From contig CAIFEG010000011.1 in the NCBI GenBank assembly GCA_903789415.1, forward strand, positions 1 to 51,343: a stretch of 51,343 nt of DNA, in the 5' to 3' direction. The DNA is from an uncultured Eggerthellaceae bacterium. Its GTDB lineage: Bacteria > Actinomycetota > Coriobacteriia > Coriobacteriales > Eggerthellaceae. The translations under genes and the position numbers were made by a program. Under the pieces are notes generated by a model. That model was given only the letters and a program-made list of their open reading frames with translations. It was not told where the DNA came from and did no database searches. Positions 28,856-39,865 of the stretch are shown one piece after another (the first letter of the stretch is position 1; every line of letters begins with the position of its first letter).

Positions 28856-29057
28856 GATAAATTCATCCTTTTAGGTGATGGCATGAAAGCGACTCCGTAC
28901 TTATAAAGAGCTTACTAGTTTCAATGCACCTTATCCAAAGAACTTCTGGATGCGTAACTAAAACCAGAATCTTGGTTGAGTCAGCTCTTGAACGTCATGA
29001 GTTTAAGAATTTGATCGCAATTCTTTTTTGGAAAGGCGCATAAACGAAGGAGGGGAA

Positions 29058-30956
29058 ATGAGCGAGGAACATCAAAAGAAAGAAAACATCTCGCGTCGTT
29101 CATTATTGAAAATGGGCGGAATTGCTGCAGTAGGCGCGTTGGGTGCATCTGCCCTTGCATCGTGCGGTCCACGAAACAGAAGCAATGATTCCGGATCGTC
29201 GGGATCGGGCTCAAGCTCGAGTCAAACTTCGGGAAATGCTCCAGAAGGGTATTTCTGTGTCGATGACTGGTTGGGTCAGCCACCTGAGTTAGGAGAGCCA
29301 GACCAGACAAAAGACTGCGACATTGTTGTTGCAGGCGGCGGAAATGCAGGTATTCAAGCAGCTCTTGCAGCCGCTGAGGGTGGAGCAAAAGTCATTGTTT
29401 TGGAAACTGCGTCCGAGGAAAATCGTAAGGTTAAAGGTGAAGACGTTGGCCATGTTAATAGTCAATGGCTGATTAACCAGGGATTTGGCCCATATGATGT
29501 TGGTGAAGTTACCTATGAATTTGTTCGTCGTTCCGGCGGACATGTAAACCCTGAGATTCTGCGTAAATTTGTCGCAAACTCTGGTGAAATGTTTGACCAC
29601 ACGGCTTCGTTGGTCCATTGGCCCGATGATCGTATTCGCGTAACAGATGGCGTAGATGCAAGCGTTTCTCCTATGGACAGCAGTCAGGTGATCGTACAGG
29701 TTCCTGGCGCTGTTGAAGATGGACCAGTTACCTACCCAATTGAGGCAGGTGGTTGGAAGACTTGGCCTGCGACGGCACAGTTTATGGGCCCACTTCAACA
29801 CGATCCGCAGCAAGGTGTCGCCGCATTTAGTCGCCTGGATGAATTCCAACAGTTCGCAATCTTAAGAGGTCAAGATTTAGGTGCTGAATGGGATTACGAA
29901 ACAAGTGCACAAAAACTGTTACAGGATGATTCTGGAAAAGTGATCGGCATTGTAGCAACAACCGCTGACGGTCAGGTGATTCAGTACAACACATCTATCG
30001 GCGTGATTTTGTGCACGGGTGATTATGCGGCAAATGCTGACATGATTTGGAACTTAAATCCGGTAATTTCTGAACGTGCAATGCGTCATGGTGAAAGCCG
30101 TGATAAGGTGACCGGATTCTCAACATCCGATGGTCAAGGACAGAAGATGGGCTGCTGGGCTGGTGGCCGTATGGAGTCGCTTCCCCGTCCTGTTATGGGT
30201 TCGCCGGGATCTGCCGGTGGTGGTGGTCCTTGGGGCTGCACTCCATATTTGTGGATCAATGCAAATGGTGAGCGCTATTGTAACGAGGCTTCGATGGTTG
30301 ATGCCGCGCAGGTTACGGATATGCAACCTGATGGATTGCTCGCAACCGTAACGGATGCCAACTGGTACAACATGATGAAACTTGCATCGCTTGATCACGG
30401 CGCTCCAAACTACGGTCGCCCGGTCTATTTCCAGGAGCTTCGACAGGATATGCAGAATGTTCCTGTTGGGGATCCTAATGGCGGACAATGCCGTTCCTGC
30501 ACAGTTGCAGAACGTATGGCTTCGACCGTTTTGGCTGCAAATACCCTTGATGAGCTTGCTGACATGATGGGCTATGAAGGAGAAGCAAAGCAGAATCTTC
30601 TCAATACCGTTCAGCATTACAACGAAATGTGCCAGAATGCCGATGATACACAGTTTGGTAAAGACTCCAAGTACATGCAGGCTATCAACACGCCGCCATT
30701 CTACGGATGTGTGGGCCAAAATGCTCACAATGAAAATGTTGGTCTGGTGACCTTGGCTGGTCTTGAAACAGACAATGACCTGCAAGTTGTTAAAGCCGAC
30801 GGAACGCCAATTGGAGGACTGTGGGCTGCAGGTAACTGCCTTGGATACCGCTATGGCGCTGGCTATGCAACGCCATTTGCAGGTAATTCAATTGGCATGG
30901 CGATGACGCACGGTCGTGTTGCAGGTAAACTCGCAACAGGTCAATCGGTTTCGTAG
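29058..30956 (+). CDS. Tat-exported FAD-dependent fumarate-reductase-like flavoprotein (first)
   Basis: The 632-residue protein starts with a twin-arginine signal (SRRSLLKMGG) and a lipobox (ALASC), so it is probably a lipoprotein on the outer membrane face. The mature part begins its FAD domain with DIVVAGGGNAGIQAALAA and GGAKVIVLE. The active-site region contains NANGERYCNE, and the end reads LWAAGNCLGYRYG, as in the FrdA/flavocytochrome c/urocanate-reductase superfamily. No CxxCH haem motif is present, so it needs a separate electron donor. The ATG follows AAGGAGGGG at good spacing. Its substrate cannot be told. A membrane LuxR gene is divergent, and a C-rich-loop hairpin plus terminator follow. 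Confidence 0.93.
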   Translation: MSEEHQKKENISRRSLLKMGGIAAVGALGASALASCGPRNRSNDSGSSGSGSSSSQTSGNAPEGYFCVDDWLGQPPELGEPDQTKDCDIVVAGGGNAGIQAALAAAEGGAKVIVLETASEENRKVKGEDVGHVNSQWLINQGFGPYDVGEVTYEFVRRSGGHVNPEILRKFVANSGEMFDHTASLVHWPDDRIRVTDGVDASVSPMDSSQVIVQVPGAVEDGPVTYPIEAGGWKTWPATAQFMGPLQHDPQQGVAAFSRLDEFQQFAILRGQDLGAEWDYETSAQKLLQDDSGKVIGIVATTADGQVIQYNTSIGVILCTGDYAANADMIWNLNPVISERAMRHGESRDKVTGFSTSDGQGQKMGCWAGGRMESLPRPVMGSPGSAGGGGPWGCTPYLWINANGERYCNEASMVDAAQVTDMQPDGLLATVTDANWYNMMKLASLDHGAPNYGRPVYFQELRQDMQNVPVGDPNGGQCRSCTVAERMASTVLAANTLDELADMMGYEGEAKQNLLNTVQHYNEMCQNADDTQFGKDSKYMQAINTPPFYGCVGQNAHNENVGLVTLAGLETDNDLQVVKADGTPIGGLWAAGNCLGYRYGAGYATPFAGNSIGMAMTHGRVAGKLATGQSVS

Positions 30957-30980
30957 TTGATAATCAAAAAACGCGAGGGT

Positions 30981-31013
30981 GCGTGATATAAACCCCTCCC
31001 TTTTGTGTCGCGC
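30981..31013 (+). ncRNA. 3'-UTR hairpin with C-rich loop (copy 1)
   Basis: GCGTGATAT (30981-30989) pairs with GTGTCGCGC (31005-31013) through nine pairs, three of them G-U. The 15-nt loop holds CCCCTCCCT. It lies 24 bp after the flavoprotein stop and before the terminator. CCCCTCC in the loop is exactly complementary to GGAGGGG (29049-29055), the ribosome site of the same gene. Two hairpins with other stems and the same loop core follow at 38161 and 39654. This may be part of a 3'-UTR-derived RNA; the feature type is a guess. Confidence 0.45.
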
Positions 31014-31026
31014 ATCAATGTTTTGG

Positions 31027-31061
31027 ATTCCCCAGTTTGGAAACAAGCTGGGGAATTTTTT
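31027..31061 (+). terminator. Terminator of the first flavoprotein gene
   Basis: ATTCCCCAG (31027-31035) pairs with CTGGGGAAT (31048-31056) in a 9-bp perfect stem with a 12-nt loop, followed by TTTTTT. mntP ends 16 bp further on from the other side, so it may serve both strands. Confidence 0.85.
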
Positions 31062-31076
31062 ACGTTCAGGAACTTT

Positions 31077-31628
31077 CTAAAACATTGCGTGAATGCCGAT
31101 GAAGATCAACACGACGCCTCCGACAATTTGCGCACGATCGCCCAAAAGCGACCCAAATTTCTGCCCGATTCTCAGGGCAATCAGCGTCAAGATGAACGTA
31201 ATACAGCAAATTACCAGGCTATATTCAACAATATTGACATTCATAGCGCGCAAACTGATACCCACGGCGAACGCATCGATAGAGGTTGCGATAGCTTGCA
31301 AGAGGATCATGCCGAACGTAATTGAGCTGCCTCGGTTGGACTCGACCTCTTTATCGACCTTTTTGGTAACTCCTTCATAGATCATGTTGATTCCGATGGC
31401 ACCCAGAATAACGAGTGAAACAATGCCCGCGTACCGTTGAATAAGGTCAGCAAACACTCCGCTTAAGAAGTAACCCAAAAACGGCATTATTCCCTGAAAA
31501 ACGCCGAATGCAATAGGGAATAGAATCATTCTTCTAAATGGTTCTTTGTTATATGAAATCGAGTCACTAATGGTAACAGCAAAGGCATCAAGCGAAAGCG
31601 CAATACTTAGTGTAAGTAACTCTATCAT
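31077..31628 (-). CDS. mntP: Manganese efflux pump MntP
   Basis: The 183-residue membrane protein has six helices in two inverted halves, each with the MntP acidic motif: SLDAFAV near residue 12 and SIDAFAV near residue 107. MntP exports Mn2+ to prevent toxicity. ATG 31628 gives the usual MntP start (MIELLTLS); an in-frame GTG at 31664 would add 12 residues before the first helix and is less likely. It is often governed by a yybP-ykoY riboswitch or MntR, but I could not recognise either upstream. The gene converges on the first flavoprotein terminator. Confidence 0.93.
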   Translation of the reverse strand: MIELLTLSIALSLDAFAVTISDSISYNKEPFRRMILFPIAFGVFQGIMPFLGYFLSGVFADLIQRYAGIVSLVILGAIGINMIYEGVTKKVDKEVESNRGSSITFGMILLQAIATSIDAFAVGISLRAMNVNIVEYSLVICCITFILTLIALRIGQKFGSLLGDRAQIVGGVVLIFIGIHAMF

Positions 31629-31971
31629 TTCGCGAAGGCTTCTTGATTGGGTATAAAAAGACACAAATATTCAGGTAGTTTAGCACATGTATGCAAGGAT
31701 GTTCAGATAGCACATAGATACAACAATCCTCGGGGATGTATATAGGGTAATTAATAACAAGTTGAAATTCTTGCTGCTTGTTGACAGGGATTTTAAACTA
31801 GAAAATGGAATTGTACCCAGAGTTCTTCACCCATACCAATTGTGAACTCATGGGTACAATTCCTTTTTGCTTCTGGTTTGCTGCATTATTGAAGTACAGA
31901 TCATTACGTCTGACGGTGCGAACGGCAGATGGTGTAAATTAAGCTTGCATGCGTGAAATTGGGCGGCGCTT
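31629..31971. other. 343-bp gap between the NSS transporter and mntP
   Basis: No gene is supported. The half near mntP is AT-rich and should hold its promoter. The half near the transporter holds the large hairpin at 31807-31863. I looked for a manganese riboswitch on the minus strand and did not find its conserved core. Confidence 0.5.
31807..31863 (-). terminator. Large hairpin behind the NSS transporter gene
   Basis: GGAATTGTACCCA (31807-31819) pairs perfectly with its complement at 31851-31863. The stem continues through GAGTTC and GAACTC with one bulged base, for 19 pairs in all. It lies 109 bp behind the transporter stop. On the minus strand ATTTTC follows; on the plus strand CTTTTTGC does, so it may act in both directions. 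Confidence 0.65.
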
Positions 31972-33315
31972 TTATCCAATGCCGCCAAACGCAATTCCCA
32001 AGAACAAAACGATAATCGTCACGCCGCAATACACATATTTTCCCAGGTAGTAAAATGCATTTGAAAGTGGCTTCTTGCGTCCCTGGTTCATCTCGTACTG
32101 CGCGCGTTTTTTGCTGAAGAACCAGTAGAAACAAAGAGCTGCGAGGAATGCTCCCAGCGGGCACAAGTAAATGGAGCATACGTCCATCCACGGCGACACG
32201 ATTTGTTGAATCGCCAGACCAATGGCAAGTCCGATAACCCCGATGATGATGCACGCGGTACGGCGCTTCGCATGGAAAATTTCTTGAAGCGTGGCAACCG
32301 GCACCTCAAACAGGTTAATCAACGATGTCAGCCCGCCGAACATTACCGCAATAAAGAAAATGATCATGAATACGGGACCGCCCGGCATCTGCGAGAACAG
32401 ATTCGGCAGGTAGATGAACAGAAGTCCCGGACCACCGCTCGAAAGGCGCTGACCGGCGCTTGCCATAGCGGGGATGATGATCACCGACGCAAGCATGGCG
32501 GCGATGGTGTCGAAAATCGCGACCATTTTTGCGCTATTCGGAATGTCTTCGTTTTCATGCAGGTAGGATCCATAAATAAGCGTGCCGTTGCCCGCCACCG
32601 ACAAACTGAAAAATGCCTGACCAAGTGCGTATACCCATACGGTCGGGTCGGCTAATCCCGCCGGGTTCAGTAAGAAGATGTATTCATATCCTGCGCCCGC
32701 GCCCGGCAAAAACAGCACGTAAATGGCAAGTCCGATGAACATGATGAAAAATAGCGGCATCATAATCTCGTGGGCTTTTTCCACGCCTTTGCCGATGCCG
32801 AAAATCATGATGCCGATGACCACGACCATCGCGATGATCTGAAAAATCGTGTTGTTTGACGAAATATCGGCGAATTGCTGCTGATATGCTTCGGCACCCA
32901 TAATGCCGATATACGAGCCGGTCAGCGAGCCAAACGTGTAGGCAAAAATCCACCCCACAACCACCGAATATCCGATAGCCATGGCCAGCGCGGAAATGGT
33001 AGGCAGTAAGCCCATGATGCGACCCGCGCGCGCGGAGCCAAATTTCTCGTTTGTCGCTTCCCCAAATGCGCCGATAGGGCCTTTGTGCGTGGCGCGTCCG
33101 AGCGACATTTCTTCGATGATGCCCGTGGATGCGATGAGCAGCACAAAAATGAGGTACGGAATTAAAAAGGTTGCTCCGCCATATGCCGAAATGCGCGTCG
33201 GGAACAGCCAGATGTTGCCCATCCCAACAGCTGATCCGATGCACGATAAAATGAAACCACGGCGCGATTTAAACAGTTCGCGTTCTTCTTGTGGCAAATC
33301 TTTTTTGTCTTTCAT
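31972..33315 (-). CDS. Sodium-dependent transporter of the neurotransmitter:sodium symporter (NSS) family
   Basis: The 447-residue protein has about 11-12 helices. Helix 1 carries the NSS Na+/substrate signature (GSAVGMGNIWLFPTR), broken by a Gly-rich kink as in LeuT, and the sodium-site Ser/Gly-rich segment in helix 8 is present (LTSLINLFEV). Bacterial members take up amino acids or related amines with Na+. The substrate cannot be told. A strong ribosome site, AAGGGAGGC, precedes the ATG. It seems monocistronic, with a hairpin downstream. It lies between mntP and tRNA-Thr, and its relation to the flavoprotein genes is unclear. Confidence 0.92.
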   Translation of the reverse strand: MKDKKDLPQEERELFKSRRGFILSCIGSAVGMGNIWLFPTRISAYGGATFLIPYLIFVLLIASTGIIEEMSLGRATHKGPIGAFGEATNEKFGSARAGRIMGLLPTISALAMAIGYSVVVGWIFAYTFGSLTGSYIGIMGAEAYQQQFADISSNNTIFQIIAMVVVIGIMIFGIGKGVEKAHEIMMPLFFIMFIGLAIYVLFLPGAGAGYEYIFLLNPAGLADPTVWVYALGQAFFSLSVAGNGTLIYGSYLHENEDIPNSAKMVAIFDTIAAMLASVIIIPAMASAGQRLSSGGPGLLFIYLPNLFSQMPGGPVFMIIFFIAVMFGGLTSLINLFEVPVATLQEIFHAKRRTACIIIGVIGLAIGLAIQQIVSPWMDVCSIYLCPLGAFLAALCFYWFFSKKRAQYEMNQGRKKPLSNAFYYLGKYVYCGVTIIVLFLGIAFGGIG

Positions 33316-33641
33316 GGCGAAGCCTCCCTTCGTAAATCACAAGCAATCTGTGAAGCCGAAACGCTGCATGGCTTTTGGCGACTACAGAAGTGTTGGTCGC
33401 ATAAAATTGCCGGTCCTATTAAGTTTCCGGTCATATAAGTTGCCAACCATGCAGGTTGCGTTACCTAGAATGGCACAACAAAGTTTCTATATGGGGTTAT
33501 TTGAAAATCGACTTTTAAAAATCATGTGTGAACTCGGTGAGAACGTGTGCGAAAATACATAAAGACAGCGTGTGATATTTGCTTAGCATGGCAAGCTGCT
33601 CTATAATTTTTGCCTGCGTTCGAATGAATGCAAACGCTATT
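33316..33641. other. 326-bp gap between the NSS transporter and tRNA-Thr
   Basis: Only regulatory DNA is expected: the transporter promoter (minus strand) and the tRNA-Thr promoter (plus strand). A twofold repeat, GCCGGTCCTATTAAGT and TCCGGTCATATAAGT, lies at about 33409-33442 and could be an operator. A TATAATTT box at 33602-33609 is a plausible -10 for the tRNA. Confidence 0.45.
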
Positions 33642-33717
33642 GCCAACGTGGCTCAGCTGGTAGAGCAACGCTCTCGTAAAGCGTAGGTCACCGGTTCGAA
33701 TCCGGTCGTTGGCTCCA
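33642..33717 (+). tRNA. tRNA-Thr (anticodon CGT)
   Basis: A 76-nt cloverleaf: acceptor strands GCCAACG and CGTTGGC, D arm GGCTCAGCTGGTAGAGC, anticodon stem ACGCT/AGCGT with loop CTCGTAA (CGT), T arm CCGGTTCGAATCCGG, and encoded CCA. A terminator follows. Confidence 0.97.
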
Positions 33718-33726
33718 GAATTTTTA

Positions 33727-33760
33727 CAGGTCAGAGATCTTCTCTGGCCTGTTTTGTTTT
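33727..33760 (+). terminator. Terminator after tRNA-Thr
   Basis: CAGGTCAGAGA (33727-33737) pairs with TCTCTGGCCTG (33741-33751), one G-T pair, loop TCT, followed by TTTTGTTTTT. Confidence 0.85.
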
Positions 33761-33961
33761 TCCTTTATTTCTCAAAAAAATTAGCATTTATCAGGGTATT
33801 GGGACTATTGTGGGACAGCAAAAGTAAGCCCATACTCTACAATTAAATACAGGATGCATCTCAATCATGTTTTACTGGACGCGCAATGCTGAATGCGAAT
33901 ATCATCGCATGTCAGCCGCGCCCCACACTTCTTCAAACCACGAATTAAAGAGGGAAGAACA

Positions 33962-34474
33962 ATGGGAAAGATTATCGGTTATAAATGCCAGGATTGCGGA
34001 TATGAGTTTAGCGCATCTCTTGGCATTGGCTTCAGTTTTCCAGCAGTCTATGCGGAAACAGTTGAAAAAATGAAGTCAGGAAAGCTTGGAAAAGATGCTC
34101 AGCAATTTTTTGAAGATCATCCTGATGGATCAGTCAACTGTGAAAACGTTCTGTTCCAATGTGATCAATGCCATAAATATTTTTGTGATAAGGATTTATC
34201 AATGTATGTTCCTAAAAGTGGAGTAACCATGCCGCCAAAAACAGGACGATGGAGTGTGGCTATGCCATTTGAAGGTGCCGAATATATTACTAAAGAAGAT
34301 CTTGATAAATACTTTGAACTGTATAAGAGATTTGATCATCGTTGCAAAGAGTGTGGGGGTAAATTGTCGTTTGTGGCTGATGACACTCCAGAACATATCC
34401 AAATGGAAATTGAATGTCCAATTTGTCACGGAAGAATGAAATTGAAATTAGAAGATCTGGGACGTTGGGATTAA
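33962..34474 (+). CDS. Zinc-ribbon protein of unknown function
   Basis: The 170-residue protein holds four cysteine pairs: CQDCGYEF (about residues 9-16), CDQCHKYFC (about 64-72), CKECGG (about 129-134) and CPICHG (about 152-157). They are of rubredoxin/zinc-ribbon style and probably form two zinc-binding knuckle pairs. There is no signal peptide or membrane helix. The start was chosen at the ATG that follows GAGGGAAGAAC. The gene has no clear operon partner: tRNA-Thr lies before it and a convergent LuxR gene behind. The fold cannot be assigned to a family with certainty. Confidence 0.8.
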   Translation: MGKIIGYKCQDCGYEFSASLGIGFSFPAVYAETVEKMKSGKLGKDAQQFFEDHPDGSVNCENVLFQCDQCHKYFCDKDLSMYVPKSGVTMPPKTGRWSVAMPFEGAEYITKEDLDKYFELYKRFDHRCKECGGKLSFVADDTPEHIQMEIECPICHGRMKLKLEDLGRWD

Positions 34475-34565
34475 CGCATAAATAACAGTCCTTACGGATT
34501 GATGCGGAAGCTCGCAGGGTATAAGAGCTTGGTTCCACGCTCGGACAAAAAGTGTGTACATTTTT

Positions 34566-34595
34566 GGGCTTCTGATGCAGATCAGGAGCTCTTTT
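34566..34595 (+). terminator. Terminator after the zinc-ribbon gene
   Basis: GCTTCTGAT (34568-34576) pairs with ATCAGGAGC (34581-34589), loop GCAG, followed by TCTTTT. The same hairpin, with two neighbouring base changes, recurs on the other strand at 41585-41618. The 80 bp between the stop and this hairpin contain another GAAGCTC/GAGCTTGG pairing of unknown use. Confidence 0.7.
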
Positions 34596-34711
34596 CTATG
34601 CTTTTAAAAAGCGAAACTGTTTAACAAGCAGCAGAATGAATATTCTCAATTAGCATAATGACGGCATGGGGAAGACAGTGCCACCAAGTGTCTTGTCTCT
34701 CCTGTTCAGGA

Positions 34712-34738
34712 TGTAAGGTCGCAATTTGCGACCTTACA
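34712..34738 (-). terminator. Perfect inverted repeat behind the second LuxR gene
   Basis: TGTAAGGTCGCAA (34712-34724) and its complement (34726-34738) form a 13-bp palindrome with almost no loop. It is 32 bp past the LuxR stop. No T tract follows on the minus strand, so it might act as a 3' stabiliser or a binding site instead. Confidence 0.5.
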
Positions 34739-34769
34739 AAGCTAATGGATTAAGCATTAGCAGGTATAG

Positions 34770-36170
34770 CTAATCACCCTTAACACCTAGCATTTCGAAC
34801 AACTCGGTTTTCGAATGAATACCAAGTTTATGGTAAATATGCTTTGTGTGCGTCTTAACAGTGCTGTTTGCTATAAACAGTTCATTTTCGATTTCCTTTG
34901 GAGTTTTTCTTTCGCAAAGAAGCATCAACACTTCGTTTTCACGTGATGTCAGATTATATTCGACAGATATTTCATGACACCGAATTGCCAGTCGATGTTT
35001 GGATGCTGCTCCTTGGGTGTCTTTTCCCACAACGCCTTTAAGAATTGCTCCCCAGGGGGAAGAGGAAGGTTCTGAAAGGAATAAATGTGTAGCCCAAACA
35101 ACAATAGCTGCAACAATAATTGCAGTTATATTTCGCTCTATCGAAAGAGAACCTGAAGTAATCATACTTGAGCTAAAAATTCCAAGTTGCACGCTGATGA
35201 GTCGTATTGCGCGTTCGATGCCAAAAAGCCAGATAGCATTTACCCCATAATGATAAGTTATGTGGGAAAGAATGGTCATGATCGAAATCAGGCATAGTGT
35301 GTAACTTAATAACGCGCAGAATCGTGAAATTGCTATTCCGCCCGGGAAAGCATCAATAAACGGGAGAATAGAAACGATCATGCAAACGCATGCCAATACA
35401 TATAATGGAGCAAATCGAAATGTGCTGCGTTGGATGCAAACGAGAGCATATATTAAGATACCCGCGAATAACGCTCCGAATCCAGAGTGAATCCCCAGTG
35501 GACCTTTAAAGACATAAGTGCACAGTCCGTAGGTAAATGAATATAGGGCCACGATGACGATCGGTTTCCATGGAAGAGAAAATGTACCCCATTGTTTTGT
35601 GGGTAGATCATCTTTAGAGATAAGTCGATATGCGTGCCGAAGGCAATCAAGTGAGAGCAATGGAATAAGACAAACGCATACAACAAGCCACCGAATGTCT
35701 AATCCTTTAAACAGCCATAAGATCAAACCACCAATAACAATACCCCCAGAAAAATAAAGCAAAACTTTGGTAGGGTTTAAGCAGCCAAACAATTCTGACC
35801 ATTGCAAGATAATGGTCGCAATTCCGATACTTCCACATATGACGCCGATTGTTCCTAATAACATTGCGTATTGAGAAACCTGTATTGACGCAAAATTAAC
35901 CAAGGCACTTGCAATCAAACCAAATCCGCTTAATATGCTTGGCCATTTTTTGCTAAAAAAAGGAGTCACATGTTTTGCATTAAATGCGTATACGAAGAGA
36001 AGGCATGCAGAAATCAAATTGAAAGCGGCAAATCCTGTCCACCAGAATTGTTGAGCGGGAAAAAAGACTTGGTTGTTGGAATATATTTCTTCTGTCCAGA
36101 CACGAAAAATTCCCATGCCGCTCATGCATAGCGGCATTTCTATAAAAAGCTTTTTCTTAGATTTGCTCAT
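34770..36170 (-). CDS. Membrane-spanning LuxR-family regulator (second)
   Basis: The 466-residue protein has about 12 hydrophobic helices (residues about 10-370) and a C-terminal LuxR helix-turn-helix (about 400-460; LTSRENEVLMLLCERKTP, then STVKTHTKHIYHKLGI). It is the same architecture as the LuxR protein at 28817, with a shorter linker. It is divergent from the flavoprotein at 36407, so it most likely senses that enzyme's substrate or redox state and activates its gene. The start ATG has no strong ribosome site. The candidate operator shared by both pairs lies in its upstream region. Confidence 0.9.
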   Translation of the reverse strand: MSKSKKKLFIEMPLCMSGMGIFRVWTEEIYSNNQVFFPAQQFWWTGFAAFNLISACLLFVYAFNAKHVTPFFSKKWPSILSGFGLIASALVNFASIQVSQYAMLLGTIGVICGSIGIATIILQWSELFGCLNPTKVLLYFSGGIVIGGLILWLFKGLDIRWLVVCVCLIPLLSLDCLRHAYRLISKDDLPTKQWGTFSLPWKPIVIVALYSFTYGLCTYVFKGPLGIHSGFGALFAGILIYALVCIQRSTFRFAPLYVLACVCMIVSILPFIDAFPGGIAISRFCALLSYTLCLISIMTILSHITYHYGVNAIWLFGIERAIRLISVQLGIFSSSMITSGSLSIERNITAIIVAAIVVWATHLFLSEPSSSPWGAILKGVVGKDTQGAASKHRLAIRCHEISVEYNLTSRENEVLMLLCERKTPKEIENELFIANSTVKTHTKHIYHKLGIHSKTELFEMLGVKGD

Positions 36171-36285
36171 TAAAAAAGACTCACTTATAAGACGCTAAAC
36201 ATGTTACACATGTGATTTTCACAATCCTAGTTGAATTCTGCTTAAAGGTTCCGGAAAAGTCGGACAAATATCAATATGAGTAAAT

Positions 36286-36312
36286 ATCCCCCTGTTTTAC
36301 CTGGGGTGGATG
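36286..36312 (+). promoter_or_regulatory. Candidate operator in the second LuxR/flavoprotein gap
   Basis: TTTTACCTGG (36295-36304) matches the minus-strand motif at 28846-28855. It sits inside a larger imperfect palindrome from ATCCCCC (36286-36292) to GGGGTGGAT (about 36303-36311). This is about 100 bp before the flavoprotein start and 130 bp before the LuxR start, a fitting place for an activator site. Confidence 0.45.
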
Positions 36313-36406
36313 ATATAAAAATGTGCCAATTCTCCCTAATCTTGTTCTTACAAATCCAAGCAATTGGTTACAAACCAAACTGTTGGTCATCTCTATGGGA
36401 GGGAAT

Positions 36407-38032
36407 ATGAAAAAGGGAATTACTAGACGTTCGTTTCTCACTGGCGCAGCTGCATCTGCTGTTATGGCTACAGGGCTTGCAGGCTGCTCTACGCATCGTA
36501 GTCGTTCGGATGATGCAAATAATGCATCAAACGGAACTGTTTCAGACGACAACCGTTGGAGTTGGTCTAAGGCACCGGATGCAATTCCGGATTCAGATAT
36601 CTCCGATACCTACGATTGCGATATTTGCATAGTAGGCTTAGGTGCTGCTGGCGCTCCATCCGCTATGTATTCAGCTATGCATGGAGCAAAAACTGTTGTT
36701 CTTCAGAAAGGCGATCACGCAATCAGCAATGGTTGGTGTGCTAATGCAATCAACAATAAAGCATGGTTAGACTCTGGCGGAGCACCATTTGATACAACTG
36801 AGTTATATGCGCAATTCGCTCCATATGCTAATGGTCGCGATAATCCAAGACTTGTGAAAACTTTCTTGGACCGCGGCGGCGAAGTTATGAATTGGATTTT
36901 GGACCAAACAACCGAAATTCCCCCTGTCTGTGTTGAGCATGGGCAAACTCTTGGTTGGTATGAAAACAATGATTTCCAAACTCGTTATTCACGTTATGCA
37001 GATCTCTTAAATCTTATGGCGCAGAAAGCTGAAGATGCTGGTGCGCAAATGTTGTGGAACACACCTGCACAGCAACTTATAACAGATGGCAATGGAACAG
37101 TTACTGGCGTTATCGGCCAAACCCAAGATGGTAATTATGTCAAAGTTAATGCTTCTAAGGGTGTCTTGCTGGCATGTGGCGATATTACCGATGATCAGGA
37201 AATGGTCGAATGCTATGCGCCGTTGTTGAGCGGAATTCAAAATCTTCATGGTGCGCCAAATAACACCGGTGATGCTATTAAGATGGGTTCATGGATTGGT
37301 GCACAAGTAACGCCAGCTCCTCATGCTATTATGATGCACTTTGACCCAACACGCCTTCCTGAAGGTGATGCACCATTCTCAGGCATTCCTTGGTTACGCG
37401 TTAATGAAAATGGTGAGCGTTTTGCAAATGAGGATCTTCCGTATCAGTCTGTTGTTTTAAGTGTTGCCGCGCAGCCTGATCGTGTTGCATTCCAGATCTG
37501 CGATCGCAATTGGATGAACCATATTAACGACTATCCAAATCCAAATAGTCACAGCAGAGAAAACCCAGATCCAGAAGGAAACTGGAATAAGTTTTTAGGA
37601 ACAGGTGCTATTAAGCAGGCAAATACGCTTGAAGAACTTGCTGATGCTGCTGGTATAAATGACAAGCAGACTTTCGTTGCAACCGTTAATCATTACAACG
37701 AGCTCTGCGACAAAGGCCATGATGACGACTTCGGTGTCAATGGAACATTCATGTCTTATAACGCCATTAAAGAGCCGCCATTCTATGCGATCAAACGTAT
37801 TCCGAATGTTCTGGCTACCGTTGGTGGTTTGCAAGTAAACGATCATAACCAAGTGTTGAGCCAAGATGGTGGCACTATCGGGCATTTATATGCAGCCGGA
37901 GATGACGCAGGATCGTTCTATGGACACGAATATCCAATGTTCCTTCCTGGTGGATCTATTGGCAGAGGCTTCATTCTGGGGATCTTGGCAGTGAAAGATG
38001 CTCTTGGAGATTATGACACCCCAACACAATAG
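36407..38032 (+). CDS. Tat-exported FAD-dependent fumarate-reductase-like flavoprotein (second)
   Basis: The 541-residue protein begins with a twin-arginine signal (TRRSFLTGAAASAVM) ending in a lipobox (GLAGC). The FAD-binding segment is CDICIVGLGAAGAPSAMYSA. The active-site region has NENGERFANE, and the FAD-capping end reads HLYAAGDDAGSFYG. It belongs to the FrdA/flavocytochrome c superfamily, is shorter than the first copy, and has no haem motif. It would reduce an organic acceptor with electrons from a membrane cytochrome. ATG 36407 follows GGGAGGGAAT; the upstream in-frame codons lack a ribosome site and would bury the Tat signal. A divergent LuxR gene lies before it and MFS genes behind. 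Confidence 0.93.
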   Translation: MKKGITRRSFLTGAAASAVMATGLAGCSTHRSRSDDANNASNGTVSDDNRWSWSKAPDAIPDSDISDTYDCDICIVGLGAAGAPSAMYSAMHGAKTVVLQKGDHAISNGWCANAINNKAWLDSGGAPFDTTELYAQFAPYANGRDNPRLVKTFLDRGGEVMNWILDQTTEIPPVCVEHGQTLGWYENNDFQTRYSRYADLLNLMAQKAEDAGAQMLWNTPAQQLITDGNGTVTGVIGQTQDGNYVKVNASKGVLLACGDITDDQEMVECYAPLLSGIQNLHGAPNNTGDAIKMGSWIGAQVTPAPHAIMMHFDPTRLPEGDAPFSGIPWLRVNENGERFANEDLPYQSVVLSVAAQPDRVAFQICDRNWMNHINDYPNPNSHSRENPDPEGNWNKFLGTGAIKQANTLEELADAAGINDKQTFVATVNHYNELCDKGHDDDFGVNGTFMSYNAIKEPPFYAIKRIPNVLATVGGLQVNDHNQVLSQDGGTIGHLYAAGDDAGSFYGHEYPMFLPGGSIGRGFILGILAVKDALGDYDTPTQ

Positions 38033-38160
38033 CTCCAAGAAATTAGATACTTTGAGATTTCAGAACAAGATGCTCGGAACTTGCTAACGCAGAGATTTCT
38101 TTACGTAAAATGTGAAAACAGTTTGAACTGAAATTTCAGAGATAGCTAAACATATCTTCT

Positions 38161-38206
38161 GGTCCGGCTTCGAATCCTACCCTCCCTATGGATTCGGGGC
38201 CGTGCC
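38161..38206 (+). ncRNA. 3'-UTR hairpin with C-rich loop (copy 2)
   Basis: The strands 38161-38177 and 38190-38206 pair over 17 positions with one mismatch and a few G-U pairs. The 12-nt loop is TACCCTCCCTAT. ATTTTAACC follows, a weak terminator tail. The loop core CCCTCCC is exactly complementary to GGGAGGG (36397-36403), the ribosome site of the preceding flavoprotein gene. It may be the 3' end of that mRNA, a released small RNA, or both. Confidence 0.5.
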
Positions 38207-38326
38207 ATTTTAACCAATTGTCTCCCTACAAACCTGGAGTAATTGTTTAGAAGATTGCTTTTGCGCGTTTCGGCTGCCACTATTTTAAAAGAAAATGTTC
38301 ACGCATTCGGATTTCGAAAAGAAGCC

Positions 38327-39622
38327 ATGGCCAAGCAAACAGCAAGCGAACCACAAATGCAAAACGCTTCAGAGCACCAAAGTAAATATGCTTTTGTGAT
38401 TGCTGCGTGCTGCTTTCTCTTTATATTTGTAGACGTTGGCATGGTATCGACCTCTTTCAACGTGTATCAGCCTTACATCGTTGAGCTTGTGGGGGACGCC
38501 GGAGGATCGCTCGTTCTCACATTTCGCCTGCTGGCTTCTACAATCGCTATGGTGTTTATCGTCAACTATTACCATCTGCTTGACCTGCGTGTGGGCGCGA
38601 CGGCATCGATGGTTTTTGCTGCGTTAGGCTTTTTCATTTTCGGCGCTATGCAAACGCTCTCAGGATTTCTGCTAGCCACTATTATTATTGGCATCTCATA
38701 CGGTCTTGGTGGAAATGTTGCTATGACCTATGCGGTGAATCGCTGGTTTTCGAACGATGTTGCGAGCATCATCGGGGTGGCGGCCACCGGTAGCGGAATC
38801 TGCGCCATCATCATGCCGCCGATCATTACCTTTTTGGTTGAGACAGTTTCACTTTCCTGGGCGTTTTGGATCGAATCGATTGTTGCCTTAATTCTTGCGG
38901 TGGTCGTGTTTGCTTTGTTGCGGAATCGCCCTTCCGACTTGGGGCTTAAGGCATATCACATCGCTGAAAAGAAAGAACGACGGTCTGCAAAAGACGTATC
39001 GGCACGTAAGCCGCACGTATTCGAACTCCCTGCGGATATGGATTTGTCGGCCCGGGCGAAGGTTGCCCTTGCGGTTTCCGCATTTTGCGTGGGAATCTTT
39101 TGCGTCTCGGCAGCCAGCTACATAACCATTCACATGACATCGAACGGATTCGACCCTCTTTTCGTTGGAGCCTTAGTTTCGCTCGGAGGGCTTTGTCTTA
39201 CCGGGTCGAAGGTTGTTTCAGGCAGGATGTACGACCGTATCGGCGTGAAAAAGGGAACAGCAATTTTATATGTGATCGAGATTGCCGGTCTAGTTGCTGC
39301 GCTACTTATCCCTACAGGAAATCCGCTTGTTGCGGTGATTTGCATCTTGGGTATGTACTGGGGCGGCGCGCTGAATTCGGTGGGAATGCCTGTGTGGGCA
39401 ATCGCGCTTTCGCATCCTGAAGATCGATCAAAACTCATCAAGAATGTGCAGGTGTGTTATACCATCGGTGCGCTGGTCTTTAATTTTATCCCCGGATTTT
39501 TAGTATCGTTTTTTGGCAGCTATGAAATCTCGTACGCGCTATTTTTAATCGCCACGGTGGGATCGATGGTTGTGATCTCGGTTCTGTTCAAGAAATATCT
39601 TCGTGCACGTGATGCTGAATAG
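38327..39622 (+). CDS. MFS transporter, OFA-like (first of two paralogues)
   Basis: The 431-residue protein has 12 predicted helices in two halves with a charged central loop (about 205-240). It resembles the oxalate:formate antiporter (OFA) branch of the major facilitator superfamily, for instance in GISYGLGGNVAMTYAVNRWF in the first half. ATG 38327 was chosen: its product starts just before the polar N-terminus, with AAAAGAAG as a weak ribosome site. The closest relative is the gene at 40141, which shares long identical stretches. The setting suggests import of the flavoprotein's acceptor or its exchange with the reduced product. Confidence 0.9.
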   Translation: MAKQTASEPQMQNASEHQSKYAFVIAACCFLFIFVDVGMVSTSFNVYQPYIVELVGDAGGSLVLTFRLLASTIAMVFIVNYYHLLDLRVGATASMVFAALGFFIFGAMQTLSGFLLATIIIGISYGLGGNVAMTYAVNRWFSNDVASIIGVAATGSGICAIIMPPIITFLVETVSLSWAFWIESIVALILAVVVFALLRNRPSDLGLKAYHIAEKKERRSAKDVSARKPHVFELPADMDLSARAKVALAVSAFCVGIFCVSAASYITIHMTSNGFDPLFVGALVSLGGLCLTGSKVVSGRMYDRIGVKKGTAILYVIEIAGLVAALLIPTGNPLVAVICILGMYWGGALNSVGMPVWAIALSHPEDRSKLIKNVQVCYTIGALVFNFIPGFLVSFFGSYEISYALFLIATVGSMVVISVLFKKYLRARDAE

Positions 39623-39653
39623 GCTTTCAGCAGTGTGCCCCTAGATACATTGA

Positions 39654-39706
39654 TGGCGCAGCTCCAAATCCAACCCTCCCTTTGGATTCAGCGTCGCGCC
39701 ATTTTT
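39654..39706 (+). ncRNA. 3'-UTR hairpin with C-rich loop (copy 3)
   Basis: TGGCGC (39654-39659) pairs with GCGCCA (39696-39701), and AATCCAA (39667-39673) pairs with TTGGATT (39682-39688) around the loop CCCTCCCT. ATTTTTAAC follows. The outer stem is different from that of copy 2, while the loop is the same, which points to selection on the loop. It lies 31 bp after the first MFS stop and doubles as a terminator. Confidence 0.55.
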
Positions 39707-39800
39707 AACATATTTGCAATTCAAGATAATAACATAAATTTCGTCATCATGAATAGTTCTGTCTGATATACGTGTCGTTTGAAGCGGAGCGCGTGCTAGC

Positions 39801-39837
39801 TAAAGCGCTTAGTAAAGCGCTTAGCTAAAGCGCTGAG
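39801..39837. repeat. Triplicate 12-bp near-palindrome
   Basis: TAAAGCGCTTAG occurs at 39801-39812 and 39813-39824, and TAAAGCGCTGAG at 39826-39837. Each copy is nearly self-complementary around AGCGCT. It could bind a dimeric protein or simply be slipped-strand expansion. Confidence 0.6.
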
Positions 39838-39865
39838 CATCCCCGCGAAGCTTTCTGACGGGAAA

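Follow-up and report, generated by a model that had tools for sequence, protein, structure and literature searches.

Why do three hairpins with unlike stems, standing 3' of three genes on one piece of bacterial DNA, share a C-rich loop? The hairpins (H1, H2 and H3, Table 1) are found in a 51,343-nucleotide stretch of an uncultured Eggerthellaceae bacterium (GenBank assembly GCA_903789415.1, contig CAIFEG010000011.1), the whole of which we call the window. They had been proposed in a sequence-only reading and are found at the places it gave, with z-scores against dinucleotide shuffles of −3.7 (for the fold that contains H1), −6.0 and −5.3. Domain matches (PF00890 twice, PF07690 once) confirm that they adjoin two flavoprotein genes and one major facilitator superfamily (MFS) gene, and folds and loop positions bear out a constant CCCTCCC core. 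The window hairpins belong to a lineage-wide RNA element of Eggerthellaceae reductase mRNAs. This element is an unpaired CCCTCCC in the 3' untranslated region (3' UTR), placed a short way past the stop codon and either at the terminator or immediately before it. In many cases it is presented in the loop of a hairpin whose stem varies, and it is carried by the mRNAs of flavin- and molybdenum-dependent respiratory reductases and of some partner genes.

A shared motif after reductase genes

The class-wide comparison drew on 20-kb stretches round PF00890 genes of three genomes of family f1 (G075, G002 and G020), together with a spread sample of the window bacterium's own genome and the window itself. 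We take f1 to be Eggerthellaceae, since the relatives of the flavoprotein among named genomes were only Raoultibacter timonensis and Eggerthella sinensis, both of this family; the bacterium's own genus offered a single genome for comparison. Genes were called by codon usage, and the first 150 nucleotides after the stop were analysed where at least 60 nucleotides of 3' intergenic DNA followed, as was the case for 79 of the 90 flavoproteins assigned (the superseded calls by naive longest open reading frame gave CCCTCCC in 23/46 vs 10/592). The stretches included 33 of 54 flavoprotein places in G002 and 33 of 56 in G020; five places in G020 and one in G000 were dropped as no gene could be assigned.

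CCTCCC follows 62/79 flavoprotein genes vs 32/732 other genes (Fisher p 8e-53), and the full CCCTCCC follows 52/79 vs 18/732. The strand control, GGGAGGG in the same regions, stands at 2/79 vs 51/732. By genome, the counts for CCTCCC are 16/22 vs 7/185 in G075, 29/30 vs 15/181 in G002, 16/25 vs 9/164 in G020 and 1/2 vs 1/202 in the own genome. Other C-rich heptamers are far more weakly enriched, dinucleotide shuffles of the same flavoprotein regions yield CCCTCCC in 4.0 ± 1.8, and so shuffles, strand control and other heptamers together rule out chance as the cause. A de novo k-mer scan ranked CCTCC, CCTCCC, CCCTCCC and CCCTCCCT first for k of 5, 6, 7 and 8, respectively. The motif is a feature of the 3' end: flavoprotein 3' regions have 5.4 copies per kb and the coding sequence of the same genes 0.015, and 5' regions show no enrichment of the sense motif (2/87 flavoproteins vs 21/1048). 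CCTCCC or CCCTCC was also found after 18/30 flavoprotein genes in G134 (GC 0.50) and 20/30 in G062 (GC 0.55), with the antisense motif after 1/30 and 0/30; these are the best 30 of 41 and the best 30 of 71 PF00890 matches, operonic genes included. The effect is not confined to one region; the motif marks a functional class across a bacterial family.

The class extends beyond flavoproteins. At the ends of DmsB-type (PF13247) operons in G002 the motif is found in 17 of 27 readable ends (antisense 6/27; 30 loci examined of 38 matches, three not readable, some ends perhaps not true operon ends), and a C-rich 3' motif was seen by eye at two of six DmsB loci in the own genome (L262 and L263). Other carriers, identified by eye from the N-terminal sequence, include lipoprotein and cytochrome-like partners, iron-sulphur (Fe-S) subunits and LysR regulators. 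The motif 3' of long LuxR genes (5/48, by eye) is not clearly above background.

The element also has a phylogenetic limit. Outside f1 the motif follows none of the flavoprotein genes at 30 loci (of 38 matches; seven genomes, families f2, f3 and f8). Since many f2 and f3 flavoprotein genes are closely trailed by the next gene, the informative outgroup count is that of G156, 0/16 (24 PF00890 matches; GC 0.62 in the locus measured). In a second f1 set of 18 loci from 18 genomes, CCCTCC or CCTCCC was found within 160 nucleotides in 11 and was absent in seven, so that the element is common but not universal within f1.

CCCTCCC occurs at 45 places in the 1.88-Mb own genome, among them further loop copies after flavoprotein genes (L009 on contig C2, L023 on C8) and, at L048 (C40), a hairpin loop just upstream of a flavoprotein gene. 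Of 23 PF00890 matches in this genome six are weak, and the other 17 include one truncated at a contig end and one interrupted by an in-frame stop; CCTCCC or CCCTCC lies within 220 nucleotides of the stop in seven of the remaining 15 intact genes. A search with flavoprotein 2 gave 17 f1 loci, comprising orthologues and closer paralogues; nine of them have CCTCCC within 200 nucleotides of the stop and a tenth (L067) has CCCTCC only. Two flavoprotein loci have peculiarities of their own: at L084 (own genome C12:4103-5413, minus strand) a PF00890 gene contains one in-frame TAG, either through decay of the copy or through a fault in assembly or sequencing, and at L198 (G074:C6) the gene is directly followed by an inverted repeat, near-perfect over arms of about 30 bp, perhaps the end of a mobile element.

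Display of the motif

We find the motif in three settings: in the loop of a hairpin before the terminator (L058), in the terminator loop itself (gene 3 of G002 L120) and in an unpaired linker (L061 and L068) standing directly before the terminator. Its mean unpaired probability in flavoprotein 3' regions is 0.72. In these regions other C-rich hexamers without G reach 0.54, and copies of the motif that follow other genes reach 0.57. Among the 3' regions having any hairpin with a perfect stem of at least 6 bp, the motif is in the loop of such a stem in 20/65 flavoprotein regions vs 8/442 others (p 1e-13), and the stems listed are unrelated while their loops are alike. A looser loop definition with 5-bp stems gives 28/79 vs 15/732 (shuffles 1.7 ± 1.2). 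The motif is thus not equally frequent in the loops of ordinary terminators, and the selection on the loop that had been proposed is upheld. However, linker copies are common, which rules out the hairpin as the conserved unit; as the motif is displayed in loops, terminator loops and linkers alike, the conserved unit is the unpaired motif.

The element does not have the features of an ordinary intrinsic terminator, since its loop is fixed across the class and a separate strong terminator follows H1, which is therefore not itself the terminator. Like the seed expected of 3'-UTR-derived small RNAs (sRNAs), the motif is unpaired and lies upstream of or within the terminator hairpin.

Table 1. Features of the window discussed in the text.
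Feature	Position	Strand	Remarks
Ribosome site GGAGGGG, flavoprotein 1	29049-29055	+	ATG at 29058; complement of CCCCTCC in H1 loop
Flavoprotein 1, FAD_binding_2 reductase	29058-30956	+	PF00890, E 3.8e-22
H1, 15-bp hairpin	30978-31016	+	3' UTR of flavoprotein 1; loop CCCCUCCCU (30993-31001); within −19.8 kcal/mol fold
Intrinsic terminator 3' of H1	31025-31058	+	−23.3 kcal/mol fold, then T run
LuxR-type regulator, GerE domain	34770-36170	-	PF00196; divergent from flavoprotein 2; upstream without GGGAGG
Ribosome site GGGAGGG, flavoprotein 2	36397-36403	+	complement of CCCTCCC core
Flavoprotein 2, FAD_binding_2 reductase	36407-38032	+	PF00890, E 6.8e-38
H2, hairpin	38160-38207	+	3' UTR of flavoprotein 2; loop UACCCUCCCUAU (38178-38189); −28.1 kcal/mol fold
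MFS transporter	38327-39622	+	PF07690, E 2.6e-29; adjoins flavoprotein 2
H3, hairpin	39652-39703	+	after MFS gene, short T run next; loop CCCUCCCU (39674-39681); −22.1 kcal/mol fold

In the window the raw count of CCCTCCC is ordinary (four copies, 2.2 ± 1.5 by chance), and it is the placement that matters. The three plus-strand copies are exactly the loops of H1, H2 and H3, and the fourth, on the minus strand, lies opposite the flavoprotein 2 ribosome site at 36397-36403. That the first two loops are exactly complementary to the ribosome sites of their own genes, as the sequence-only reading stated, is correct; such a complement is present for two of the three genes and absent for the MFS gene, which has no G-rich ribosome site. 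At Rfam gathering scores, the window and eight loci contain only tRNAs. Shortly 3' of H3, at 39790-39840, repeats of a unit like AAAGCGCTTAG can be seen by eye.

Complementary ribosome sites

What could an unpaired CCCTCCC interact with? GGAGGGA (21/87 vs 23/1048) and AGGAGG (44/87 vs 128/1048) are enriched at the ribosome sites of flavoprotein genes, which therefore pair well with CCCTCC. When genes with a GGGAGGG ribosome site were listed, many were long LuxR-type membrane proteins (the membrane kind being assigned from length and from the sequence by eye). GGGAGGG is found at the ribosome sites of 10/48 long LuxR genes, 0/18 short ones, 2/87 flavoproteins and 20/981 other genes, and GGGAGG at 16/48 long LuxR genes vs 59/981 others (p 4.6e-8). 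In G156, which lacks the 3' motif, GGGAGG was absent from all five readable LuxR-like starts. The complement is not limited to regulators, since two similar short membrane proteins beside flavoproteins (L118 in G075 and L143 in G020) both have GGGAGGG ribosome sites. As with many long LuxR genes of the relatives, a LysR-like gene (by eye) at L034 (own genome C12:5821-5827, minus strand) has one too.

We give a probability of about 0.45 to the reading that CCCTCCC is a C-rich anti-Shine-Dalgarno seed which may repress G-rich ribosome sites, in cis or as an sRNA derived from the 3' UTR. The seed would base-pair with G-rich Shine-Dalgarno sites and so reduce translation, on the one hand of reductase mRNAs with their GGAGGG-type sites, and on the other of membrane regulators of LuxR type whose genes adjoin those of the reductases, and here the site would be the perfect complement of the motif, GGGAGG(G). 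It could be active within the mRNA, as in icaR, or in trans as a short 3'-UTR fragment consisting of seed and terminator; we infer the pairing, the repression and the processed fragment from the sequence patterns. A reductase, once expressed, would in this way damp its own regulator and compete with other reductases, providing a post-transcriptional layer of feedback and allocation. The RNA network over G-rich ribosome sites that the sequence-only reading offered as one possibility would fit the enrichments at flavoprotein and LuxR sites. We consider it unlikely, though worth stating, that the common seed represses both the membrane LuxR activators and competing reductases such that one or a few reductases are expressed at once.

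Several observations weigh against an anti-Shine-Dalgarno role. Within a genome, the 5' and 3' ends of one flavoprotein mRNA pair no better than ends taken from different flavoprotein mRNAs (mean rank 0.51, 0.54 and 0.43; a first form of this comparison, with whole-region duplex energies, was uninformative). A strictly cis loop is thus not supported, nor is the suggested feedback specific to the two ends of one mRNA. Flavoprotein sites are mostly AGGAGG(G/A), with GGGAGG at just 5/87; the exact complement of these sites, CCCTCCT, is found in 12/79 3' regions vs 52/79 for CCCTCCC, so these sites do not account for the final C of the motif. The LuxR enrichment was noticed post hoc. It recurs in fresh loci, where GGGAGG is at 13/36 long LuxR genes vs 21/217 (p 1.4e-4) and GGGAGGG at 6/36 vs 8/217 (p 0.007), but the starts there were picked by script and some of these loci overlap with the first set in genus or, for G002, in genome. 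Neither of the two LuxR genes in the window has GGGAGG at its start (one has GGGGGG, the other nothing), and any C-rich loop fits many ribosome sites. Lastly, a G-rich element upstream of the ribosome site (−100 to −26) appeared to be enriched in flavoproteins (AGGGAG 11/81 vs 6/629) but proved unspecific, being present in 3/14 cases in G156, which lacks the 3' motif, and scarce in other f1 loci (2/25).

Some 5' UTRs of f1 flavoprotein genes, for example L105 and L108 in G075, contain small hairpins with G-rich loops (CGGAGGGA, AGGGAG). Such hairpins precede 8/87 flavoprotein genes vs 9/1048 others, and it is possible that a 5' G-rich loop is a kissing-loop partner of the 3' loop, but G-rich elements upstream of the ribosome site are seen in an outgroup too.

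Alternative explanations

That CCCTCCC is preferred to CCCTCCT, although the latter fits flavoprotein sites better, leaves room for a protein, as does the lack of a cis preference. CCCTCCC could be the site of an RNA-binding protein (with a KH or cold-shock domain, for example) through which the mRNAs of exported reductases are jointly stabilised, localised or silenced. A single motif running through a functional class resembles the regulon of such a protein, and its unpaired display, in loop or linker, would suit protein binding. No protein candidate came to light, no search for one having been made. However, a protein site does not predict that the G-rich complement should be enriched at the ribosome sites of the reductases and of their regulators, and we regard this explanation as rather unlikely.

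A heptamer shared by dozens of mRNAs would also fit one partner RNA: a single RNA acting in trans, its seed being GGGAGGG, could then target the motif and regulate every reductase mRNA through its 3' end. A slight search, in which the 45 own-genome sites were read for CCCTCCC hairpins and neighbouring genes and Rfam scans of some stretches gave no match above gathering score other than tRNAs, did not turn up such an RNA, and we judge the idea improbable.

The position of the motif at or just before the terminator and its C-rich, G-poor composition might instead suggest help in transcription termination or 3'-end protection, such as a short Rho-type C-rich site by the terminator. Rho sites, however, are much longer, the motif is rare after other genes in the same stretches (32/732 for CCTCCC), and its restriction to reductases would be left unexplained, which makes this a very unlikely account. 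PF00890 genes are heavily multiplied in f1 (three relatives have 26, 54 and 56 of them at E ≤ 1e-15), but inheritance, with the motif a leftover of paralogues multiplied together with their 3' UTRs, can be dismissed, as the 79 3' regions form 66 sequence clusters, only 11/2796 protein pairs exceed 60% identity, the motif persists in 31.7/42 clusters once paralogues more than 40% identical are collapsed, stems differ, unrelated molybdenum operons carry the motif too, and alignable 3' UTRs were not seen in most carriers.

Relation to known systems

The closest precedent for an anti-Shine-Dalgarno seed in a 3' UTR is the icaR mRNA of Staphylococcus aureus, where pairing of the 5' and 3' UTRs is reported with compensatory mutations and RNase III cleavage as proof (PMC3868564). 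As there (UCCCCUG in icaR), we find a C-rich motif in the 3' UTR, with its complement at the ribosome site in two of the three window genes, and action in cis or trans, proposed for icaR (PMC3868564), is proposed here as well. In contrast to icaR, a single mRNA with experimental proof, the present element occurs in dozens of mRNAs per genome, has no cis preference and is known from sequence only. A candidate sRNA from the 3' end of an operon mRNA with proposed feedback also recalls OppZ and CarZ of Vibrio cholerae, described as autoregulatory sRNAs from 3' UTRs (PMC7398697); these are processed by RNase E and belong to one operon each, whereas here one heptamer is common to unrelated operons.

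Among actinobacterial RNAs, B11/6C of mycobacteria pairs C-rich hairpin loops with G-rich ribosome sites (PMC10470900), and our element shares the C-rich hairpin loops and the proposed kind of partner. However, B11/6C is a single stand-alone gene with two loops, while the present motif lies in mRNA 3' UTRs and does not match Rfam 6C (no match at gathering score in the window or the eight loci, and none up to E 5 in 30900-39800). In Xanthomonas, sX13 is described as using C-rich motifs against G-rich regions at translation starts (PMC3771888), and in Listeria the sRNA LhrC is described as multicopy (PMC4132741); unlike our 3' UTRs, both are dedicated sRNA genes.

The putative regulator targets are known. 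LuxR regulators with 10-12 transmembrane segments are reported in Coriobacteriia; E. lenta DSM 2243 has 19 close to molybdenum enzymes and 50 close to flavin enzymes, and such regulators activate catechol dehydroxylases (PMC9734109). These are the same regulators beside the same reductases as here, but that paper treats transcription, and the words untranslated, UTR, small RNA and post-transcription are absent from its main text. In the part of a systems biology study available to us (PMC10234575) noncoding RNA is named just for depletion probes, and among the matches listed from titles and abstracts of open-licence PMC papers there was no 3'-UTR element of such kind in Eggerthellaceae. What appears to be new, then, is one candidate seed shared over a functional class, with its exact complement enriched on the regulators of that class.

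Implications for Eggerthellaceae

Bacteria of this family have dozens of reductases per genome, used in respiration and in transforming drugs, bile acids and plant compounds, and what is known of how a cell selects between them mostly concerns LuxR-type activators. Editing of E. lenta in the laboratory is now feasible (PMC9734109), so a direct test of the proposed pairing is possible. Since the motif can be read from sequence, it also flags uncharacterised genes of the reductase class, such as cytochrome partners, Fe-S subunits and regulators. If an anti-Shine-Dalgarno role of CCCTCCC is true, the choice of reductase would have a second, post-transcriptional layer, written as a 3'-UTR element on most reductase mRNAs, with its complement enriched at the ribosome sites of their activators.

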